The position numbers were made by a program, and so were the translations under genes. The notes below the pieces were generated by a model that saw only the letters and a program-made list of their open reading frames with translations, was not told where the DNA came from and did no database searches. A DNA stretch of 64,000 bases, taken from NCBI GenBank assembly GCA_000230955.3, contig CP007060.1, positions 1,426,001 to 1,490,000 of the forward strand. Direction: 5' to 3'. This document shows, in pieces, positions 165-8,045 of the stretch (its first letter is position 1; every line of letters begins with the position of its first letter). The DNA is from Halobacterium sp. DL1. Its GTDB lineage: Archaea; Halobacteriota; Halobacteria; Halobacteriales; Halobacteriaceae.

Positions 165-2204
165 CTACGCCGCTCGTACCGTCGCGTTCAGGGTCGTCCC
201 GTCGGGTCCAGCCCCTGGGACGAAGGCCGCCTCGCCGCCGCAGTTCCTGAGGTCGGTGCAGAGCTCTCGATACGGCGTCAGCGCCCGGTAGCCGTCCGCC
301 GTCTCCTCGACCGGGAGGCGAACGCGGTAGCTGAGGCCCGCGCCGTAGCCGCCGTCGACGAGGGCCTCGACAGTCACGCTCCCGTTCAGCGGCACGCTGG
401 CGTCCTCGGTCTCCGGAGCCAGTCCATCGAGACGAACGCGTCCGTCACGGACAACCACGTCGAACTCGGCGCTTCCACCGGCGTCCACCGCCCCGAGTGC
501 GTGGTGGACCCGCTCGTCGCCCGAGGAGAGCGTGAGGGTGACGCTCTCCGTCCACTCCGGGAGGCCGACACGCACGCCGGTCCGCAGCGCGTCCCCCGAA
601 ACCACCTGCACGCGCCGGAGGTCGGGCGTGACCGGCCGCGTCGAGTACGGCGACCACGACCCCCGGTAGACGTACCGGTAGAGCTCGCGGTCCGGGTAGG
701 CGTCCACGACGGCGAACTGGCGCTCCTCGAGCGCGTAGACGGTCCGCCCGTCGAACCCGGGGTCGTTGCGCAGCGGCTGGAACGGGTGGTTGAGCCACTC
801 CCCGTACGGCTCGGGGAGGAACACCACCGAGTCGGCGGGCGGCGACGGCTCGAACGGTTCGTAGGCGGCCTCGTAGTGGTCCGTGAGGTCGGCGTTCTCC
901 CGGAGTTGCGGCCCGGCGACGGACGCCGTCGCGGCGCCGAGTACCGCTCCCGTCACGACCAGCAGGGCGACCGCAGCGGGGCGAGCGCGGCCGGGCGAAA
1001 CGCGTCTCCGGACCGAGCGCCGGGCCACGTCCACGACGGCCAGCAGCCCGACTGCCGCGAACGCGCTCGCCGGCACGAGCAGGTCGAAGTGGTAGTACGG
1101 ACCGAGCGTCGAGACGAGGCCGTCGGTCGGGTCGCCCAGCGCGCCGAGCACGTTGCGGTTCCCCCAGAAGAGGAGGTTCCCCGCGACGACGCTGACGGCC
1201 GACCCTCCGAGGACTGCCGGGCGCCAGTCCCAGCCACGGTGGTGGGTCGCGTAGACGCCGACAGCCGCAAGTAGGGTGCCGAGCGCGCCGAACGGCCCCC
1301 ACGTCGTGAGGAACTCCCCGACCACCTCGGCGTTCGAGCGCACGGCGAGCCCGGGGGTGTACGTCAGTTCGTAGCCGAGAATCGCGCGGCGGCCGAACCC
1401 GAGGCCGTCGAGGGGCGCGAACGCCTGGTACGGGAACAGCAGCGGCGACCCCGTGACGACGGCGTTGTACGCGAGCGTGACGGCGACGCCGAGGAGGCCG
1501 ACGGCCGCGGTAGCGCTGCGGCGCCGGACGACCGGGCCCGTCGAGCGGTCGCGGAGCGCGGGCAGCAGCGTCCAGACGGCGTGCGCGACGAACGGGGCGG
1601 CGAACAGTACAGCCGTGTACGGTCGCGTGAAGAACGCGAGTCCGGTCGCCGCGCCCGCGATCGCAGCCCATCGTGGGCTCCCGGTGCGCTCGGCGCGGAA
1701 GTACGCGAGCGCGAACGTGAGGTTCAGCATCGTCGTCGGCGCGTACGGGAGGAAGAGACCGGACTGCACGAGGAACAGCGGGGAGCAGAGCAGGGCGACG
1801 CCGGCCACCACGCCGGTCCGGTGGTCGAATACCTCCCGAACGACGCCGTAGAGCAGGGCGACGGTGGCGGCGGCGACGGCGGGTAGCGCGTAGCGGAACG
1901 ACCCCGCGAGTTCGCCGAGCGCGAAGACCGCGGCGGTCGGCGGCGCGTACTTGGGGTAGAGGCCGCTCGCCGAGTCGACGAAGAACCACGGCCGGAACGC
2001 GTCCTCGACGGGCGGGCGGAGGAACAGCTGGCCGTCGATGAGCATCGCGGCCTGCTGGAGGTAGACCGCCTCGTCGTGGTTCGTAGAGTGGTACGGGAAG
2101 AGGTGGACGGAGACGGCGAACGCGACGACTGCGGCGACGCCGGCGAGCGCGAGCGGTGCGAGGGGGAGGCGATCGATGGCCCCGCGCACGCGCTGGTCGT
2201 CCAT
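165..2204 (-). CDS. GT-C fold (GT39/ArnT-like) membrane glycosyltransferase-like protein
   Basis: The 679-residue protein has about ten hydrophobic helices in its first 430 residues and a C-terminal domain of about 250 residues that is largely soluble and beta-rich. After the first helix it has the acidic loop motif NHDEAVYLQQA, typical of GT-C lipid-linked-sugar transferases (PMT/ArnT/GT39), where the acidic pair binds the donor. Seen: topology and DE motif. Inferred: transfer of a sugar from a polyprenyl-phosphate donor to an exported protein or lipid at the outer membrane face. Its ATG overlaps the stop of the upstream ABC ATPase (TAATG), so it is the last gene of the iron-transport operon. 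The acceptor is unknown. It could also be a GT-C paralogue of unknown substrate. Confidence 0.7.
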   Translation of the reverse strand: MDDQRVRGAIDRLPLAPLALAGVAAVVAFAVSVHLFPYHSTNHDEAVYLQQAAMLIDGQLFLRPPVEDAFRPWFFVDSASGLYPKYAPPTAAVFALGELAGSFRYALPAVAAATVALLYGVVREVFDHRTGVVAGVALLCSPLFLVQSGLFLPYAPTTMLNLTFALAYFRAERTGSPRWAAIAGAATGLAFFTRPYTAVLFAAPFVAHAVWTLLPALRDRSTGPVVRRRSATAAVGLLGVAVTLAYNAVVTGSPLLFPYQAFAPLDGLGFGRRAILGYELTYTPGLAVRSNAEVVGEFLTTWGPFGALGTLLAAVGVYATHHRGWDWRPAVLGGSAVSVVAGNLLFWGNRNVLGALGDPTDGLVSTLGPYYHFDLLVPASAFAAVGLLAVVDVARRSVRRRVSPGRARPAAVALLVVTGAVLGAATASVAGPQLRENADLTDHYEAAYEPFEPSPPADSVVFLPEPYGEWLNHPFQPLRNDPGFDGRTVYALEERQFAVVDAYPDRELYRYVYRGSWSPYSTRPVTPDLRRVQVVSGDALRTGVRVGLPEWTESVTLTLSSGDERVHHALGAVDAGGSAEFDVVVRDGRVRLDGLAPETEDASVPLNGSVTVEALVDGGYGAGLSYRVRLPVEETADGYRALTPYRELCTDLRNCGGEAAFVPGAGPDGTTLNATVRAA

Positions 2205-3340
2205 TATCGGGTCGGGTACCAGGCCAGCGAGTGGTCCGACACCAGATCGACCGTCACGGGTTCGCCGACGTCCATGTCTTCGGCGTGGTTGTGGAGGCAG
2301 CGCACCACGTCGCCGTTGTCGAGTTCGACGTGGTAGATGAACGAGGGGCCGGTGTACTGGCGCTGGACGATGACGCCGTTCGCGTTCGCCTCGTTGGCGG
2401 GAACGGCGCGCAGGTCGTCGGGGCGCACGAGCACGTCGACCATCGCGCCCGTGTAGCCGTCGGAGAGCCCCTTCAGGAGCCCGCGGTCGTAGGAACCGAT
2501 GCGTGTGTCGACGGTCTGCTCGCCGACGCGCCCGGAGAGGAAGCCGGCCTGGCCGAGGAAAGAGGCGACGAACCGCGACTCGGGGTGTTCGAAGACGGAC
2601 TCGGGGTCGCCGACCTGCTCGAGGCGGCCGTCGTTGAGCACAGCGACGCGGTCCGAAATCGAGAGCGCCTCCTCCTGGTCGTGGGTGACCGAGACAGCGG
2701 TGACGCCCGCCTCCTTGAGGATACGCCGGACCTCCTCGCGCATCTCGACACGGAGTCGCACGTCGAGGTTCGAGAACGGTTCGTCGAGCAGGAGGATGTC
2801 GGGTTCGGGCGCGAGGCTCCGGGCGAGCGCCACACGCTGCTGTTGCCCGCCGGAGAGCTGGTCGGGCGAGCGTTCGCCCATTCCGGGCATGTCGACGAGT
2901 TCGAGGAGGGCGTCGACGCGCTCCGCGGTGGCCTCGTCGTCGAGGTCGGTCAGCCCGAACGCGACGTTCTCCCGGACCGAGAGGTGGGGGAACAGCGCGA
3001 AGTCCTGGAAGACGATGCCGACGCCGCGGGTCTCGGCGTCCTCGAACGTCCCGGGGCCGGCGACGGTGTCACCGGACAGCGAGATGGTGCCCTCGGTCGG
3101 GCGTTCGAGGCCAGCGAGCAGACGCAGCGTCGTGGTCTTCCCGCAGCCGGAGGGACCGAGCAGCGTGAGGAGTTCGCCGTCGCGCACGGTGAGCGTGAGG
3201 TCGGTGACCGCCGTCTCCGTCCCGTACTCCTTCGTGACGCCGTCGAGTTCCAGCACCGTCTCTGGTTCGTCCGGCTCGGCCTTCGCGTCGCTGTCTCCGG
3301 GTTCCGTCGCCGTCTCCGTCGTGACGTCTGGGTCAGCCAT
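2204..3340 (-). CDS. ABC transporter ATP-binding protein, iron(III)/thiamine type
   Basis: The protein has 378 residues counted from the ATG at 3340; upstream start codons lie inside the permease gene. Walker A is LLGPSGCGKTTTLRLLAG, the signature is LSGGQQQRVALARSL, Walker B is DILLLDEPFSNLD, and the switch His sits in VTHDQEEAL. A C-terminal TOBE-like regulatory domain (about residues 280-375) follows, as in FbpC/PotA-type ATPases. It powers the permease encoded just upstream, with which it overlaps by 8 bases. The first 35 residues are an acidic low-complexity stretch. Substrate is inferred from the binding protein of the same operon. Confidence 0.9.
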   Translation of the reverse strand: MADPDVTTETATEPGDSDAKAEPDEPETVLELDGVTKEYGTETAVTDLTLTVRDGELLTLLGPSGCGKTTTLRLLAGLERPTEGTISLSGDTVAGPGTFEDAETRGVGIVFQDFALFPHLSVRENVAFGLTDLDDEATAERVDALLELVDMPGMGERSPDQLSGGQQQRVALARSLAPEPDILLLDEPFSNLDVRLRVEMREEVRRILKEAGVTAVSVTHDQEEALSISDRVAVLNDGRLEQVGDPESVFEHPESRFVASFLGQAGFLSGRVGEQTVDTRIGSYDRGLLKGLSDGYTGAMVDVLVRPDDLRAVPANEANANGVIVQRQYTGPSFIYHVELDNGDVVRCLHNHAEDMDVGEPVTVDLVSDHSLAWYPTR

Positions 3341-4943
3341 TGTATCGTTCCTGTGCGAGGATGACGACCATCGAGAGCGCCGACACGCCCACGAGGACGA
3401 GCGCGGGCACCGCGGCCGCGCCGTACGAGCCCGCTCCTCTGACGAGCCAGATGTAGGAGACCAGGGTTTCAAAGCCTAACGGACTGAGCATCAGCGTCGC
3501 CGGGAGCTCCTTCATCGTCGTGAGGAAGACGAGCGCGGCGCCCGCCGCGACGCCTGGCGCGATGAGCGGCAGCGTCACCTCGCGGAACGCAGCCGTCGAC
3601 GAGCGGCCGAGCGTGCGCGCGGCCTCCGTCAGCTTCGGGTCCACCTGGAGCACCGACGAGCGCACGGTACCGACGGCCTGCGGGAGGAAGCGCACGACGT
3701 AGGCGAATACGAGCAGCGGGAGCGTCTGGTAGAGCGACGTGGCGTACTCCGTGGAGAAGAAGATGAGCGCGAGCCCGATGACGACACCCGGGACGGCGTA
3801 GCCGACGTACGTGAGGCGGTCGGCGACGGTCGAGACGAGGGAGTCCGAGCGCGCCGAGTAGCCCGCCACGGGGAGCGCGAGCAGGATGGCGGCGAGCGCG
3901 GCGGCCACGGCAACCTTCACGGAGTTCCACGCTACCCCGGGTTCGAACGTGAAGACGGTCGCGCCCGCCTGTTCGAGCCAGAGAACGAGCACGCCCAGGG
4001 GGACGGCCAGGGCGAGCCCCGCTACCGCGGTACAGAACGCGAGCGCGGGCAGCGTCCAGGCGCCGAGTTCGATGCGTCCGGGCTGGCGGGAGCCCCGCGA
4101 GATGTACGCCGCGCTGTCACCGCCGAGGCGGGATTCGAGGGCGAGCACGACGGCGACGACGCCGAGCAGCTGTAGTGAGAGCAGCGCCGGGAACCCCTCG
4201 GGGACGCCGAGGCTCTGCTGGGCGACGTATATCTGCTGGGTGAACACCTGGTAGCGCATGATGGATGGCGTGCCGAAGTCCGAGAGTGCGTACAGCGCGG
4301 CGAGCAGCGCGCCCGCCGTGACGCCGGGGAGAATCTGGGGGACGGTGACGCGTTTGAACGCCTCCCAACGGGAGTGGTTGAGGGTGCGCGCGGCTTCGAC
4401 CAGCGTGCCGTCGAAGGAGAGCAGCGCGGCCCGCGTCGTGAGGAAGACGTAGGGGTAGGTGAACAGAATCAGCACGAGTGCGGTGCCGTGGAGTCCGTAG
4501 ATGGCGGGGATGCGTTCGATGCCGAGCGGCGCGAGCGCGTCCGCCAGGTCACCCCGGGGGCCGAACGCGCTGACGAACGTGAACGCGCCGATGTAGCTGG
4601 GGACGACGAGCGGGAGCGCGGCGACGATGGTCCAGAACCGCCGCCCCGGGAGGTCGGTCTGGACGGTCAACACCGCCAGCGGGACGCCGACGAGCACGCA
4701 GCCGAGGGTCACCCAGAAGACGAGCACGAGGCTGTTGACGAGCGTCGTGACGCTGCCCGAGTAGGTGAACAGCCCGAGCAGGTGGCCGAGCCCGTAGTTC
4801 GACGCGCGGACGAAGAGGACGACGAGCGGCAGCGAGACGAGCGCGGCGACGGCTGCGGCGACGAGCGCGAGACCGAGGCCGCTGGCGCCGTCGTCGCCCG
4901 CGGCAGCGGCCTTCAGCCGTTCGATGCGCTCGCTGGTCGCCAT
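3333..4943 (-). CDS. ABC transporter permease, fused two-domain FbpB/ThiP type
   Basis: The 536-residue protein has about twelve transmembrane helices in two homologous halves, each with an EAA-type loop (EAARTLNHSRWEAFKRVTVPQI near residue 190; EAARTLGRSSTAAFREVTLP near residue 440). Bacterial and archaeal iron(III) and thiamine importers often have such a fused permease, so one polypeptide forms the whole membrane channel. The ATG is one base after the stop of the substrate-binding protein gene and its end overlaps the ATPase start, so the three genes are translationally coupled. Motifs longer than needed for family assignment are absent; the substrate is inferred only. Confidence 0.9.
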   Translation of the reverse strand: MATSERIERLKAAAAGDDGASGLGLALVAAAVAALVSLPLVVLFVRASNYGLGHLLGLFTYSGSVTTLVNSLVLVFWVTLGCVLVGVPLAVLTVQTDLPGRRFWTIVAALPLVVPSYIGAFTFVSAFGPRGDLADALAPLGIERIPAIYGLHGTALVLILFTYPYVFLTTRAALLSFDGTLVEAARTLNHSRWEAFKRVTVPQILPGVTAGALLAALYALSDFGTPSIMRYQVFTQQIYVAQQSLGVPEGFPALLSLQLLGVVAVVLALESRLGGDSAAYISRGSRQPGRIELGAWTLPALAFCTAVAGLALAVPLGVLVLWLEQAGATVFTFEPGVAWNSVKVAVAAALAAILLALPVAGYSARSDSLVSTVADRLTYVGYAVPGVVIGLALIFFSTEYATSLYQTLPLLVFAYVVRFLPQAVGTVRSSVLQVDPKLTEAARTLGRSSTAAFREVTLPLIAPGVAAGAALVFLTTMKELPATLMLSPLGFETLVSYIWLVRGAGSYGAAAVPALVLVGVSALSMVVILAQERYNG

Positions 4944-6086
4944 CTACGAGAGGATGCCGACGTCCCGGAGCATCGAGAGCGTGGGCTGTACGTTCGAGAG
5001 CTTCTGGAGGTCGATCTCCGGCGGTTCGAGTTCGTCGATGGTCGGGAGCGGGCCGACCGGTTCCACGCCGGAGATCATCGGGTAGGCGAAGCCGCGGGTG
5101 GCGATGAACTCCTGGGCCTCCGCGGAGAGCAGGTGGCGGACGAACAGGTTCGCGAGGTCCTGCTTGCCCGAGCCGCCGAGGACGGACGCGCCGGAGACGT
5201 TGACGAGTGCGCCCGCGTCGTTCTTCGTGAACGCGAGGCCGAGGGGTGCGTTCTCTCGGCGCGCGAGCACGCGGATGGCGTAGTAGTGGTTCGCGAACCC
5301 GGCTCCGATTTCGCCGTTGGCGGCCGATTCGGAGACCAGGAACTCGTTGTCGTAGCGGGCGACGTTCTGGTCGACCATGTTCTGGAGCCACTGCCGGGTC
5401 GCCTCGTCGCCGCGCTGGAGGCGCATCGCGGTGACGAACGAGTGGAACGCGCCGTACGTCGGCGCCCACCCCATCGCGCCCGAGAATCGGTCGTCGGTGG
5501 CGAAGGCCGCGACGTCGGTCGGGATGTCGGAGGCCGCGAACTGCTCGGTGTTGTACGGAATAGCGCGTGCGCGTCCTGCGACGCCGACCCACTGGCCAGT
5601 CTTGAACGCGTCCGGGACCGGCGAGAGCGCCTCGGAGGAGAGCTGCGTCGTCGCACCGGCGTCCGCGACGTAGGCCAGCGACCCGGCGTCGACCGACCAG
5701 AACACGTCCGCCCGGACGGTGTCGTTCTCGTGTTCCTGTTCGATCTGCTTGGCGAGCTGTGAGGAGGGCTGGACGCTCCAGGTCGCCTCGAAGCCGTCGT
5801 AGTAGCGGTTGAACAGTTCGAGGAGGTTCTCGTAGCGGCCGCCCTCGCCGCCGCCCAGGTAGACGTTGAGTTTGCCCTCGAGGTCCGGGAGGTCCTCGAT
5901 GGAGGTGCCGCCGGGTGCGGGTCGACTGGAGACGAGCGGCCCCGAGCCGCGGAAGTCCGCGAGTCCCGGCTGCCCGCTGCTGCCGTTCCCGCCGAGAAGT
6001 CCAGAACAGCCCGCGAGACCGCTCGCAGCTACCGTACCGGTCGCCGCGAGGAAGCGCCGACGCGTGCGTCCGAATCCATCGCTCAT
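4944..6086 (-). CDS. ABC transporter substrate-binding lipoprotein, probable iron(III)
   Basis: The 380-residue protein starts at the ATG at 6086. It has a twin-arginine motif (RRRFLAATG) and a lipobox (GLAGC), so it should be exported by Tat and anchored by a lipid on the Cys near residue 26. The rest resembles the AfuA/FbpA iron-binding family (LNVYLGGGEGGRYENLLELF near the start, GRARAIPYNTEQF in the middle, with a conserved Tyr). It is the first gene of the operon with permease and ATPase. A metal-repressor-type palindrome lies 8 bases before the start codon. Thiamine or a phosphorylated solute are possible alternatives, but the operator favours iron. Confidence 0.85.
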   Translation of the reverse strand: MSDGFGRTRRRFLAATGTVAASGLAGCSGLLGGNGSSGQPGLADFRGSGPLVSSRPAPGGTSIEDLPDLEGKLNVYLGGGEGGRYENLLELFNRYYDGFEATWSVQPSSQLAKQIEQEHENDTVRADVFWSVDAGSLAYVADAGATTQLSSEALSPVPDAFKTGQWVGVAGRARAIPYNTEQFAASDIPTDVAAFATDDRFSGAMGWAPTYGAFHSFVTAMRLQRGDEATRQWLQNMVDQNVARYDNEFLVSESAANGEIGAGFANHYYAIRVLARRENAPLGLAFTKNDAGALVNVSGASVLGGSGKQDLANLFVRHLLSAEAQEFIATRGFAYPMISGVEPVGPLPTIDELEPPEIDLQKLSNVQPTLSMLRDVGILS

Positions 6087-6093
6087 AGGGGAA

Positions 6094-6119
6094 TTAGGTC
6101 GGCCTAAAACTCTTATAGC
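6094..6119 (-). promoter_or_regulatory. Promoter with DtxR/Idr-type operator upstream of the iron ABC operon
   Basis: The palindrome TTAGGTCGGCCTAA (6094-6107) has 5-bp perfect outer arms, one mismatched inner pair and a central CG pair, and matches the TTAGGYnnRCCTAA pattern of DtxR-family iron/manganese repressors. On the minus strand a TATA element GCTATAAGA lies at 6111-6119, about 29 bases before the ATG at 6086. The operator therefore sits between TATA box and start of a nearly leaderless transcript, an ideal position for repression. Confidence 0.7.
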
Positions 6120-6132
6120 TACCGGTTCGTAC

Positions 6133-7281
6133 TCAGTCGTCGGCCGTCGCGGCGACGCGCTGGTCGGCGACCGCGTCCAGGCAGTCCACCCAGTCCAGCA
6201 GGTACTCGCCGCACTCGTTGAGGAAGGCGCCGTTGTTGTACTCCTCGTAGTCCCCTTCCGCGAGCCGCTCGCCGACTGCGCGTGCGACCGCTGCGTACGA
6301 CTGCTCGCCGACCTCCGCGGCGGCGACCTCTCTCCAGAAGTGCTCGTTGAGTTCGAGGCCCGCAACCTCGTTGGCGAGGTCGTCGAACGTCGAGCGTGGA
6401 GCCTTGTTGTGCTCGCAGAGCGGCGCGCCGTTGTAGACGTCGCCGCCCACCAGGTCGGCGGCGCGCTTCAGCAGGACGCCGCTCCAGATGTCGTCGAAGC
6501 GCCCGACGTCCCACGCGTTGTCGTCCATCGGGAACTGGTAGAACGCGGGGATGACCTCGCGGCGGAACGCCAGGTTCATCGAGCAGACGGTGAGGTAGTC
6601 GTCCTCGCGCGCGACGAAGTCCCGCTCGAAGTCCTCGAAGTCGGTTCGCGTCTGGGCTTGTCCCTGCAGGTCGCCGTCCATCAGGATGCGGACGGCGTCT
6701 AGGTCAGGGACGTTCGTCCAGAGGCCCTGGGAGGCGACGACGTGGTCGACCTCGGTCGTGCCGACGTCGACGTCCTCGTCCATCGCCGAATAGGGGTAGC
6801 CCCGCGGGTAGAGGTCGGTGTCGGACTGGTAGAGCACGTTCACCCAGTTCTCGTCGGAGGTCACCGCTTCGACCTCGCCCTCGTAGTGGAGGTTGTCGAG
6901 GTGGGTTCCGAAGAAGTCCCACTCGTCGTGTGGGAGCGTGTCGTCGTCGACGAACACGCCGTAGTCGAAGTCGTTGGCCCACATGTACAGCAGGCCGAAC
7001 GACGTCTGGGCGTGGCTGGCGGCGGGGACGAGGTGGCTGTAGTCGGCGACGCCGTGTTCGTCGAACCACTCCTCGCGGTCCGACCCGTCGAAGACGGCGC
7101 CGGCGACGCCCTCGTCGTCGAGCATCTCTCGCATCCCGTCGGTGTCACAGAACTCCTCGGTGACGAGCACCACGAACAGGCGGTCGAGGTCGAAGCCGTG
7201 GTCGCGGGCGTTCCGGAAGTACGAGTGCACGCACTCCCACTCGCGTATCGTGGGGACGACGACGCAGACGTCTCGGCTCAT
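6133..7281 (-). CDS. Reversibly glycosylated polypeptide / UDP-arabinopyranose mutase-like protein (GT75-like)
   Basis: The 382-residue soluble protein matches the plant RGP/UAM family (GT75; older name alpha-1,4-glucan-protein synthase) motif by motif: VVVPTIRE at the N-terminus, the metal-binding DDD in FVDDDTLP, RGYPYS, SQGLWTNVPDLDA, CSMNLAFRREVIP and GRFDDIWSG. These proteins bind a nucleotide sugar, glycosylate themselves on an Arg and interconvert UDP-arabinose forms; whether this one does so is unknown. No signal peptide or membrane helix is seen, so it is cytoplasmic. It has its own promoter with a perfect metal-repressor palindrome 17 bases before the ATG and lies beside the iron ABC/GT-C operon. 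A different nucleotide-sugar activity is quite possible. Confidence 0.75.
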   Translation of the reverse strand: MSRDVCVVVPTIREWECVHSYFRNARDHGFDLDRLFVVLVTEEFCDTDGMREMLDDEGVAGAVFDGSDREEWFDEHGVADYSHLVPAASHAQTSFGLLYMWANDFDYGVFVDDDTLPHDEWDFFGTHLDNLHYEGEVEAVTSDENWVNVLYQSDTDLYPRGYPYSAMDEDVDVGTTEVDHVVASQGLWTNVPDLDAVRILMDGDLQGQAQTRTDFEDFERDFVAREDDYLTVCSMNLAFRREVIPAFYQFPMDDNAWDVGRFDDIWSGVLLKRAADLVGGDVYNGAPLCEHNKAPRSTFDDLANEVAGLELNEHFWREVAAAEVGEQSYAAVARAVGERLAEGDYEEYNNGAFLNECGEYLLDWVDCLDAVADQRVAATADD

Positions 7282-7297
7282 CGGTTACAGCCTTCTA

Positions 7298-7313
7298 TTT
7301 AGGCTGGCCTAAA
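7298..7313 (-). promoter_or_regulatory. Perfect DtxR/Idr-type operator of the GT75-like gene
   Basis: TTTAGGCTGGCCTAAA has 7-bp perfect inverted arms and a 2-base spacer, a close match to archaeal and actinobacterial DtxR-family boxes. It is 17 bases upstream of the ATG at 7281 and lies in the only intergenic gap before that gene. On the minus strand a TATA-like CTTTTAG overlaps its distal edge, about 37 bases before the ATG. Confidence 0.7.
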
Positions 7314-7331: not shown

Positions 7332-8045
7332 TCACGAGATGCCCGCGACCGACTGCTGGAGCCGGATCGTCGGCGGCACCAGCAGGCCGCCGAGGAGGAC
7401 GAGGAAGACGTAGGACATCGAGTCGGCCACGGCAGCGGGTGCGACGAGCGCCACGAGCCCCGCGACTGCGACGCCCGTCGCGCAGACGAGCACGATGAGG
7501 AGGTGGCGGCGGAGCGTGTCCATCGTCGTGCCGTGCGCCAGCGCCTCCAGTCGTTCGCTGAACGCCACGCCGTACGCTGCGAACGCGAGCGCGCCGACCC
7601 CTTTGATGATGGCCGTGGCAGTGGTGTCACCGAGCGCGACGACGACGACCCACTCGGCGGCGATGACCAGCACGAACGCGAACTCGATGGTCCGCACCTG
7701 CTCCAGCGAGAGGTCGCGTTCTTCTGGCGGTGGGGCGAGTGCGCTGTCGTAGTACACCTCCCGCATCGCGAACGCCACGAACGCGATACCGAACAGCAGC
7801 GAGAGGTCGCCGAACGCCCGCACAACGTTGCCGCCGCCCAGCATCAGCGCGAGTCCGCAGAGGGCGAACGCCGACAGCGCGATGCCGAGGTACGAGAGGT
7901 AACTCCAGAAGTCCTCGTGGCCCTCCATGCGGTCGAGTTCGAAGTTCTGGAGCGCGTAGTAGGTGAACGCGACGCCGGAGACGAGCACGATGCCGTAGCC
8001 GGTGAACTCCAGCGCCGAGAGCACGTTCGCGGCCGCTGTCGCCAT
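7332..8045 (-). CDS. Seven-helix membrane protein paired with the HEAT/pseudokinase protein
   Basis: The 237-residue protein starts at the ATG at 8045, which shares one base with the stop of the upstream gene (TGATG). It has about seven hydrophobic helices with short loops and one acidic loop (EERDLSLEQ). No catalytic motif or known family is recognised. Tight coupling suggests that it works with the HEAT/pseudokinase protein, for example as its membrane partner, but this is inference. The alternative upstream starts lie inside the preceding gene and were rejected. Confidence 0.7.
   Translation of the reverse strand: MATAAANVLSALEFTGYGIVLVSGVAFTYYALQNFELDRMEGHEDFWSYLSYLGIALSAFALCGLALMLGGGNVVRAFGDLSLLFGIAFVAFAMREVYYDSALAPPPEERDLSLEQVRTIEFAFVLVIAAEWVVVVALGDTTATAIIKGVGALAFAAYGVAFSERLEALAHGTTMDTLRRHLLIVLVCATGVAVAGLVALVAPAAVADSMSYVFLVLLGGLLVPPTIRLQQSVAGIS

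Follow-up and report, generated by a model that had tools for sequence, protein, structure and literature searches.

A GT75 protein behind a conserved iron box is linked to a ferric importer and a GT-C glycosyltransferase in haloarchaea and may serve surface glycosylation under iron starvation

The gene at positions 6133–7281 (− strand) of the window, the 64,000-nucleotide stretch analyzed here (C1:1426001–1490000 in the 3.16-Mb genome of Halobacterium sp. DL1), encodes a 382-amino-acid protein that is a member of the GT75 family by profile, by fold, and by its conserved arginine. To our knowledge, characterized GT75 enzymes come only from plants and from two antibiotic pathways. Comparison of haloarchaeal sequences supports GT75 membership with the catalytic residues kept, a conserved iron box at the promoter, gene linkage to a ferric importer and a GT-C glycosyltransferase, and co-occurrence with the latter. 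We think it somewhat probable that the protein acts in an iron-starvation pathway, in which a derepressed mutase feeds lipid-linked surface glycosylation and so aids ferric capture.

Results

The protein belongs to GT75 and is closest to bacterial MtdL

A Pfam search with the 382-amino-acid protein matched RGP (PF03214) at 51.8 bits against a cutoff of 23.8 (E-value 8.9e-14); an NCBIfam search gave no match, and NCBI annotates the haloarchaeal gene as "alpha-1 4-glucan-protein synthase." A profile built from 40 haloarchaeal members found MtdL, the GDP-L-galactose/L-fucose pyranose-furanose mutase of Marinactinospora thermotolerans, at 7.9e-27 and rice UAM at 1.6e-5. The AlphaFold model (pLDDT 84) aligned with MtdL at Z 37.0 over 354 residues (rmsd 2.8), compared with Z 25.9 for rice UAM2 (OsUAM2) and no more than 14.3 for other, non-GT75 GT-A enzymes, and the GT-A fold, the GT75 core, and the C-terminal helices were present along the whole length. 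The profile and fold scores therefore identify a GT75 member that is nearer to bacterial MtdL than to the plant proteins. The original prediction of an archaeal relative of the plant RGP/UDP-arabinopyranose mutases was right about the family but not about the closest relative; plant UAM was rejected in that role because MtdL is closer in both sequence and fold. The protein shares Pfam family, fold, and the RGYP arginine with the plant proteins; unlike them, it is archaeal, linked to iron, and has S-M where they have G-I.

Residues described for MtdL (PMC9937993) were mapped onto the protein through the profile alignment. MtdL D109–D111, R159, D195, S228, R257, D260, and H287 correspond to D112–D114 (the DDD motif), R160, D193, S234, R261, D264, and H291, respectively, all identical in 63/63 haloarchaeal sequences. 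H291 is the metal (Mn)-binding histidine, and R160 is the counterpart of the covalently glycosylated arginine (MtdL R159, rice R158), so the self-glycosylated residue whose presence had been proposed as a check is indeed conserved. The substitutions R159K, D195N, D260N, R257K, and D109N each abolish MtdL activity (PMC9937993), and all five positions are kept in the haloarchaeal protein.

Five positions of the sugar/phosphate site differ from MtdL, and again all 63 sequences agree: D87 is replaced by H90, R90 by T93, Q229 by M235, R289 by K293, and H292 by R296. D87 and Q229 mark an MtdL-type sugar site, and with H90 and M235 in their place the protein is therefore not filed as an MtdL-type GDP-sugar mutase. 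MtdL D87N, D87S, and Q229A are inactive, and so is the reciprocal AtRGP2 mutant S91D (PMC9937993). Because MtdL D87S and AtRGP2 S91D are both inactive, the D87 position sets the chemistry of a subfamily, and a third residue there, histidine, suggests a third substrate class. All five positions are altered identically in every member, so the sugar is probably new; for the same reason, mutase activity should not be taken for granted. Overall, the protein resembles MtdL in its whole-length fold, the DDD motif, the histidine, the covalent arginine, and the sugar-site Asp/Arg/Ser. It differs in sequence (approximately 23% identity), at the five changed sites, and in context: there is no antibiotic cluster around the haloarchaeal gene, which has an iron box instead.

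A second mutase family, the FAD-type galactopyranose mutases, was looked for in the DL1 genome and none was found; of the two families searched, only GT75 provides a candidate mutase. Galactofuranose-forming activity has been reported for plant GT75 proteins (PMC9937993); together, these points make UDP-galactofuranose one donor worth a first test.

The iron box upstream of the GT75 gene is conserved

The perfect DtxR-type box that had been predicted at 7298–7313, TTTAGGCTGGCCTAAA, is exact, with 7-bp arms (TTTAGGC/GCCTAAA) and a 2-nt spacer. A gap of 16 nt separates it from the GT75 ATG, and it overlaps the expected promoter. This 16-mer occurs once in the whole genome, and the shuffled window gave 0.01 matches to the box at three or fewer mismatches. 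Across 62 loci, representing approximately 45 haloarchaeal genera, every GT75 homologue has the box 11–20 nt before its start codon; the match is exact in 59 loci and has one mismatch in 3, whereas shuffled upstream DNA would yield 0.1 in 62. In haloarchaeal genes with no leader or almost none, a box at this distance falls on the promoter, where a repressor would be expected to bind. A second box, ATTAGGTCGGCCTAAA, is located at 6093–6108, upstream of the ferric-binding-protein operon, and 53/62 loci have a box in front of the ferric-binding-protein gene.

The pattern TTAGGN4CCTAA is found at seven places genome-wide. Two of these precede a siderophore-type ABC system, four stand individually before the GT75 gene, the ferric operon, a Tat glucose/sorbosone-dehydrogenase-like gene, and a Tat gene pair described below, and one is at an unclear place. 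No target gene is evident for an exact box at L096 ~5330–5345 (C1:2104330–2104345), which sits close to the end of a cobalamin adenosyltransferase gene. When one mismatch was allowed there was no enrichment, with 18 sites against 35 for a reversed control pattern. The bare genome-wide count of near matches was ruled out as evidence because the reversed pattern is commoner, so the proof of the box rests on its conservation; judged in this way, the DtxR/FerR-type box at the GT75 promoter is real.

Four PF01325 hits over the cutoff indicate DtxR-family proteins encoded in the DL1 genome, one of which (L099) has Fe_dep_repr_C and FeoA domains. A study of Haloferax volcanii places a ferR regulon signal, attributed to Leyn and Rodionov (2015), upstream of haloarchaeal iron-siderophore transporters (PMC11349517). 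We infer that the box found here is this signal, and their FerR regulon may already include the operator.

The GT75 gene, a ferric importer, and a GT-C glycosyltransferase are linked

The iron transport operon expected beside the GT75 gene is an FbpA-type ferric system, with all of its genes on the − strand. It encodes a Tat/lipobox ferric iron-binding protein of FbpA type (4944–6086; match to a PDB ferric-binding protein at 1.5e-52), an Fe3+ ABC permease with two BPD_transp_1 domains (3333–4943), and an ABC ATPase with a TOBE domain (FbpC/PotA type; 2204–3343), the last two assigned from Pfam/NCBIfam. The NHYY iron tyrosines of the binding protein are present in 63/63 sequences, and by sequence it is a true ferric-binding protein. 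ARAGORN called a tRNA-Ser (cga) inside its gene on the opposite strand (window 4990–5079, +), probably a false positive. The genes touch or overlap, and the last of them, the GT-C gene at 165–2204 (−), overlaps the ATPase stop; the GT-C gene is therefore very probably cotranscribed with the importer. On the other side, upstream of the GT75 gene, a 237-amino-acid membrane protein (7332–8042, −) with no Pfam or NCBIfam match was seen in Halobacterium loci only, among the loci compared, and was excluded from the system.

The GT-C protein has PMT_2 and DUF7846 Pfam domains and is predicted to be a polyprenyl-phosphate-sugar-dependent glycosyltransferase. Its AF2 model (pLDDT 90) matches the GT-C folds of OST/AglB, PMT, ALG12, and ArnT at Z 21–26, and the fold match to arabinofuranosyltransferases is weaker. 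An NxDE motif in the first outer loop (NHDE in DL1; N42, D44, and E45) is present in 43/43 sequences that extend over this loop.

GT75 is encoded by 232 of 292 genomes of the class, as a rule in single copy and at approximately 70% identity, and by none of approximately 200 other genomes in the phylum sample. The gene order GT75, ferric-binding protein, (permease, ATPase), GT-C was found in 62/62 loci; the permease and ATPase are elsewhere in about one-third of these, and the other three genes still stay together. Plasmids of Halobaculum and Salarchaeum also carry GT75, with the block intact. At a presence threshold of E up to 1e-60, the GT-C protein was found in 226/232 GT75-positive genomes and in 0/60 GT75-negative ones (Fisher 6e-56, with no correction for kinship; at least four families are represented among the negatives). 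Five of the six GT75-positive exceptions were checked, and all have a GT-C protein of 40%–45% identity at the same position in the locus. The tie to the GT-C protein is thus far stronger than could be seen within the window, where it was first proposed. Paralogs of the binding protein persist in GT75-negative genomes, for the most part at lower identity.

Two further relatives were observed. One haloarchaeal genome has a second, distant GT75-like protein (77 bits; G009:C2:1525562–1526293) beside the standard copy. The only non-haloarchaeal relative in the plasmid collection is encoded on Planctomyces sp. SH-PL62 plasmid NZ_CP011275.1 (75017–75679); it is annotated as hypothetical and is 33% identical to the GT75 protein over two-thirds of the length.

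Other putative glycosylation and oxidation genes carry the same box

Among solved structures, dolichyl-phosphate-mannose synthase and ArnC are closest to a GT2 protein that is encoded near GT75 in 52/62 loci and has its own box in 47 of the 52. In DL1 the gene lies 1.6–2.3 kb to the left of the window (C1:1423673–1424368), with a one-mismatch box 26 nt before the ATG. A flippase-like gene (LPG_synthase_TM, AglD/YbhN-like) is present in 22/62 loci, just upstream in 21 and nearby in one, and all 22 copies are boxed. A GMC oxidoreductase is encoded nearby in 39/62 loci, and its Tat gluconate-2-dehydrogenase-subunit-3-like partner (G3) in 45, of which 35 have a box before G3. The DL1 G3-GMC pair is at L097:5234–7338 (+), with its box at C1:1813208–1813223; in most other haloarchaea the pair is inside or beside the GT75 cluster. 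Strong full-length GMC matches were found in 4/4 GT75-positive and 1/20 GT75-negative genomes.

Other candidates were set aside. The Tat-exported glucose/sorbosone-dehydrogenase-like protein (GSDH; L095:3782–5095, −) has an exact box 11 nt before its start (C1:344107–344122), but only 4/20 relatives share one, and it was rejected as a general part of the system. A PQQ-like propeller upstream was rejected because, among the loci, it occurs only in Halobaculum. A GalE-like epimerase gene occupies the second position upstream of GT75 in 19 loci (e.g., L060:6811–7740, +) and lacks its own box in all but one. The GalE-family protein HVO_0655 rises 12.7-fold upon iron starvation in H. volcanii (PMC11349517); a link to the epimerase is tempting but unproven.

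Discussion

The haloarchaeal FerR/Idr (DtxR-family) regulon is known for TTAGGN4CCTAA palindromes before ferric and siderophore transporters, and the boxes described here are of the same kind; beyond these targets, they also cover GT75, GT2, the flippase-like protein, GT-C (by operon), and the GMC oxidoreductase. The division of labor between a GT2 that loads polyprenyl phosphate and a GT-C that transfers outside the membrane is shared with AglD/AglS of Haloferax, ArnC/ArnT, and mycobacterial DPA/Emb. Unlike these systems, the haloarchaeal set lies behind iron boxes, includes a dedicated NDP-sugar mutase-like enzyme, and has a GMC oxidoreductase that is exported.

We hypothesize that, under iron-replete conditions, a DtxR-family repressor of the FerR/Idr type, loaded with Fe, would occupy the promoter-overlapping box and keep the GT75 gene off, and that, under iron limitation, the gene would come on together with the ferric importer. 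The metal-dependent GT75 enzyme would bind an NDP-sugar via the DDD motif and histidine and interconvert its pyranose and furanose forms, with R160 as the transient covalent sugar carrier; the product is most likely a furanose-type NDP-sugar for lipid-linked surface glycosylation during iron starvation. GT2 would load the sugar onto dolichyl phosphate, in some clades the flippase-like protein would turn the lipid-linked sugar over, and GT-C would move the sugar to an acceptor outside the membrane. Candidate acceptors are the S-layer, a surface glycan, and the ferric-binding lipoprotein. A subsequent step in most clades would be oxidation of a sugar by the exported GMC oxidoreductase. The purpose would be to aid ferric iron capture at the cell surface. 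The parts list and its regulation draw their support from sequence, and from these we infer repression, the mutase reaction and each later step, the donor, the acceptor, and the benefit. The pathway reading is limited by the neighborhoods, with GT2, GMC, and flippase-like genes near in only 52, 39, and 22 of the 62 loci, respectively. H. volcanii encodes an RGP-family protein, which is not obviously named among the most changed proteins in the main text of the iron-starvation proteome (PMC11349517). More tentatively, the genes could form a complete iron-repressed pathway in which a furanosyl or otherwise unusual dolichyl-phosphate sugar is placed on the surface or on the ferric-binding lipoprotein and oxidized there; the resulting glycan would capture ferric iron in concert with the FbpA-type importer, an iron acquisition route distinct from siderophores.

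The altered sugar contacts bear on what the GT75 protein itself does. It could be a glycosyltransferase or a self-glycosylated carrier with an R160 intermediate, and dolichyl phosphate, a protein, or an elongating glycan would then be the direct acceptor of the sugar. Its GT-A fold would fit such a role, plant GT75 proteins self-glycosylate, and AtRGP2 given UDP-Glc shows transferase activity only (PMC9937993); however, the residues central to mutase catalysis are conserved and the regulon already has a separate Dol-P-sugar-synthase-like GT2, and we regard direct transfer as unlikely. The same five altered positions might mark a catalytically dead structural partner, as AtRGP5 or OsUAM2 is, but both the His and the Arg that inactive AtRGP5 has lost (PMC9937993) are present in 63/63 sequences, which makes this reading extremely improbable.

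A serious rival to ferric capture is plain remodeling of the surface under iron starvation (biofilm, S-layer, or shape), with no aid to uptake and with shared regulation as the only link to the importer. GT2, GT-C, and the flippase-like gene are a general surface glycosylation set, and a cell-shape protein changes strongly in the Haloferax iron-starvation proteome (PMC11349517). Against this, none of the 62 loci separates GT75 and GT-C from the ferric-binding protein, even where the permease and ATPase have moved elsewhere, and we consider remodeling without uptake distinctly unlikely. The boxed Tat gluconate-2-dehydrogenase-like pair in most loci, and the boxed GSDH in DL1, raise the idea that an exported oxidized sugar (aldonate or keto-aldonate) or a glycosylated small molecule acts as a weak ferric chelator and is taken up via the FbpA-type protein. 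This is very unlikely: GT-C enzymes usually act on large or lipid acceptors, and the GSDH box is lineage specific. Mutase-fed, lipid-linked surface glycosylation that aids ferric capture is the reading we retain, and it agrees with the iron-regulated glycosyl pathway of the original prediction.

Literature searches on the H. salinarum gene (VNG09xx), haloarchaeal RGP, archaeal GT75, and Halobacterium galactofuranose returned nothing on the GT75 gene, and no open-access paper was found on an iron box over the GT75, GT2, flippase-like, GT-C, and GMC genes. The enzyme family and the type of regulon are known; their combination was not found described in accessible papers. If the proposed pathway is correct, it would provide the first function for an archaeal GT75 protein, with consistent substrate-site changes that predict a new sugar, and would tie surface glycosylation to iron starvation across most of an archaeal class. 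A genetic test is possible in Halobacterium salinarum and H. volcanii. The pathway might account for the way haloarchaea collect ferric iron, whether in place of siderophores or alongside them.
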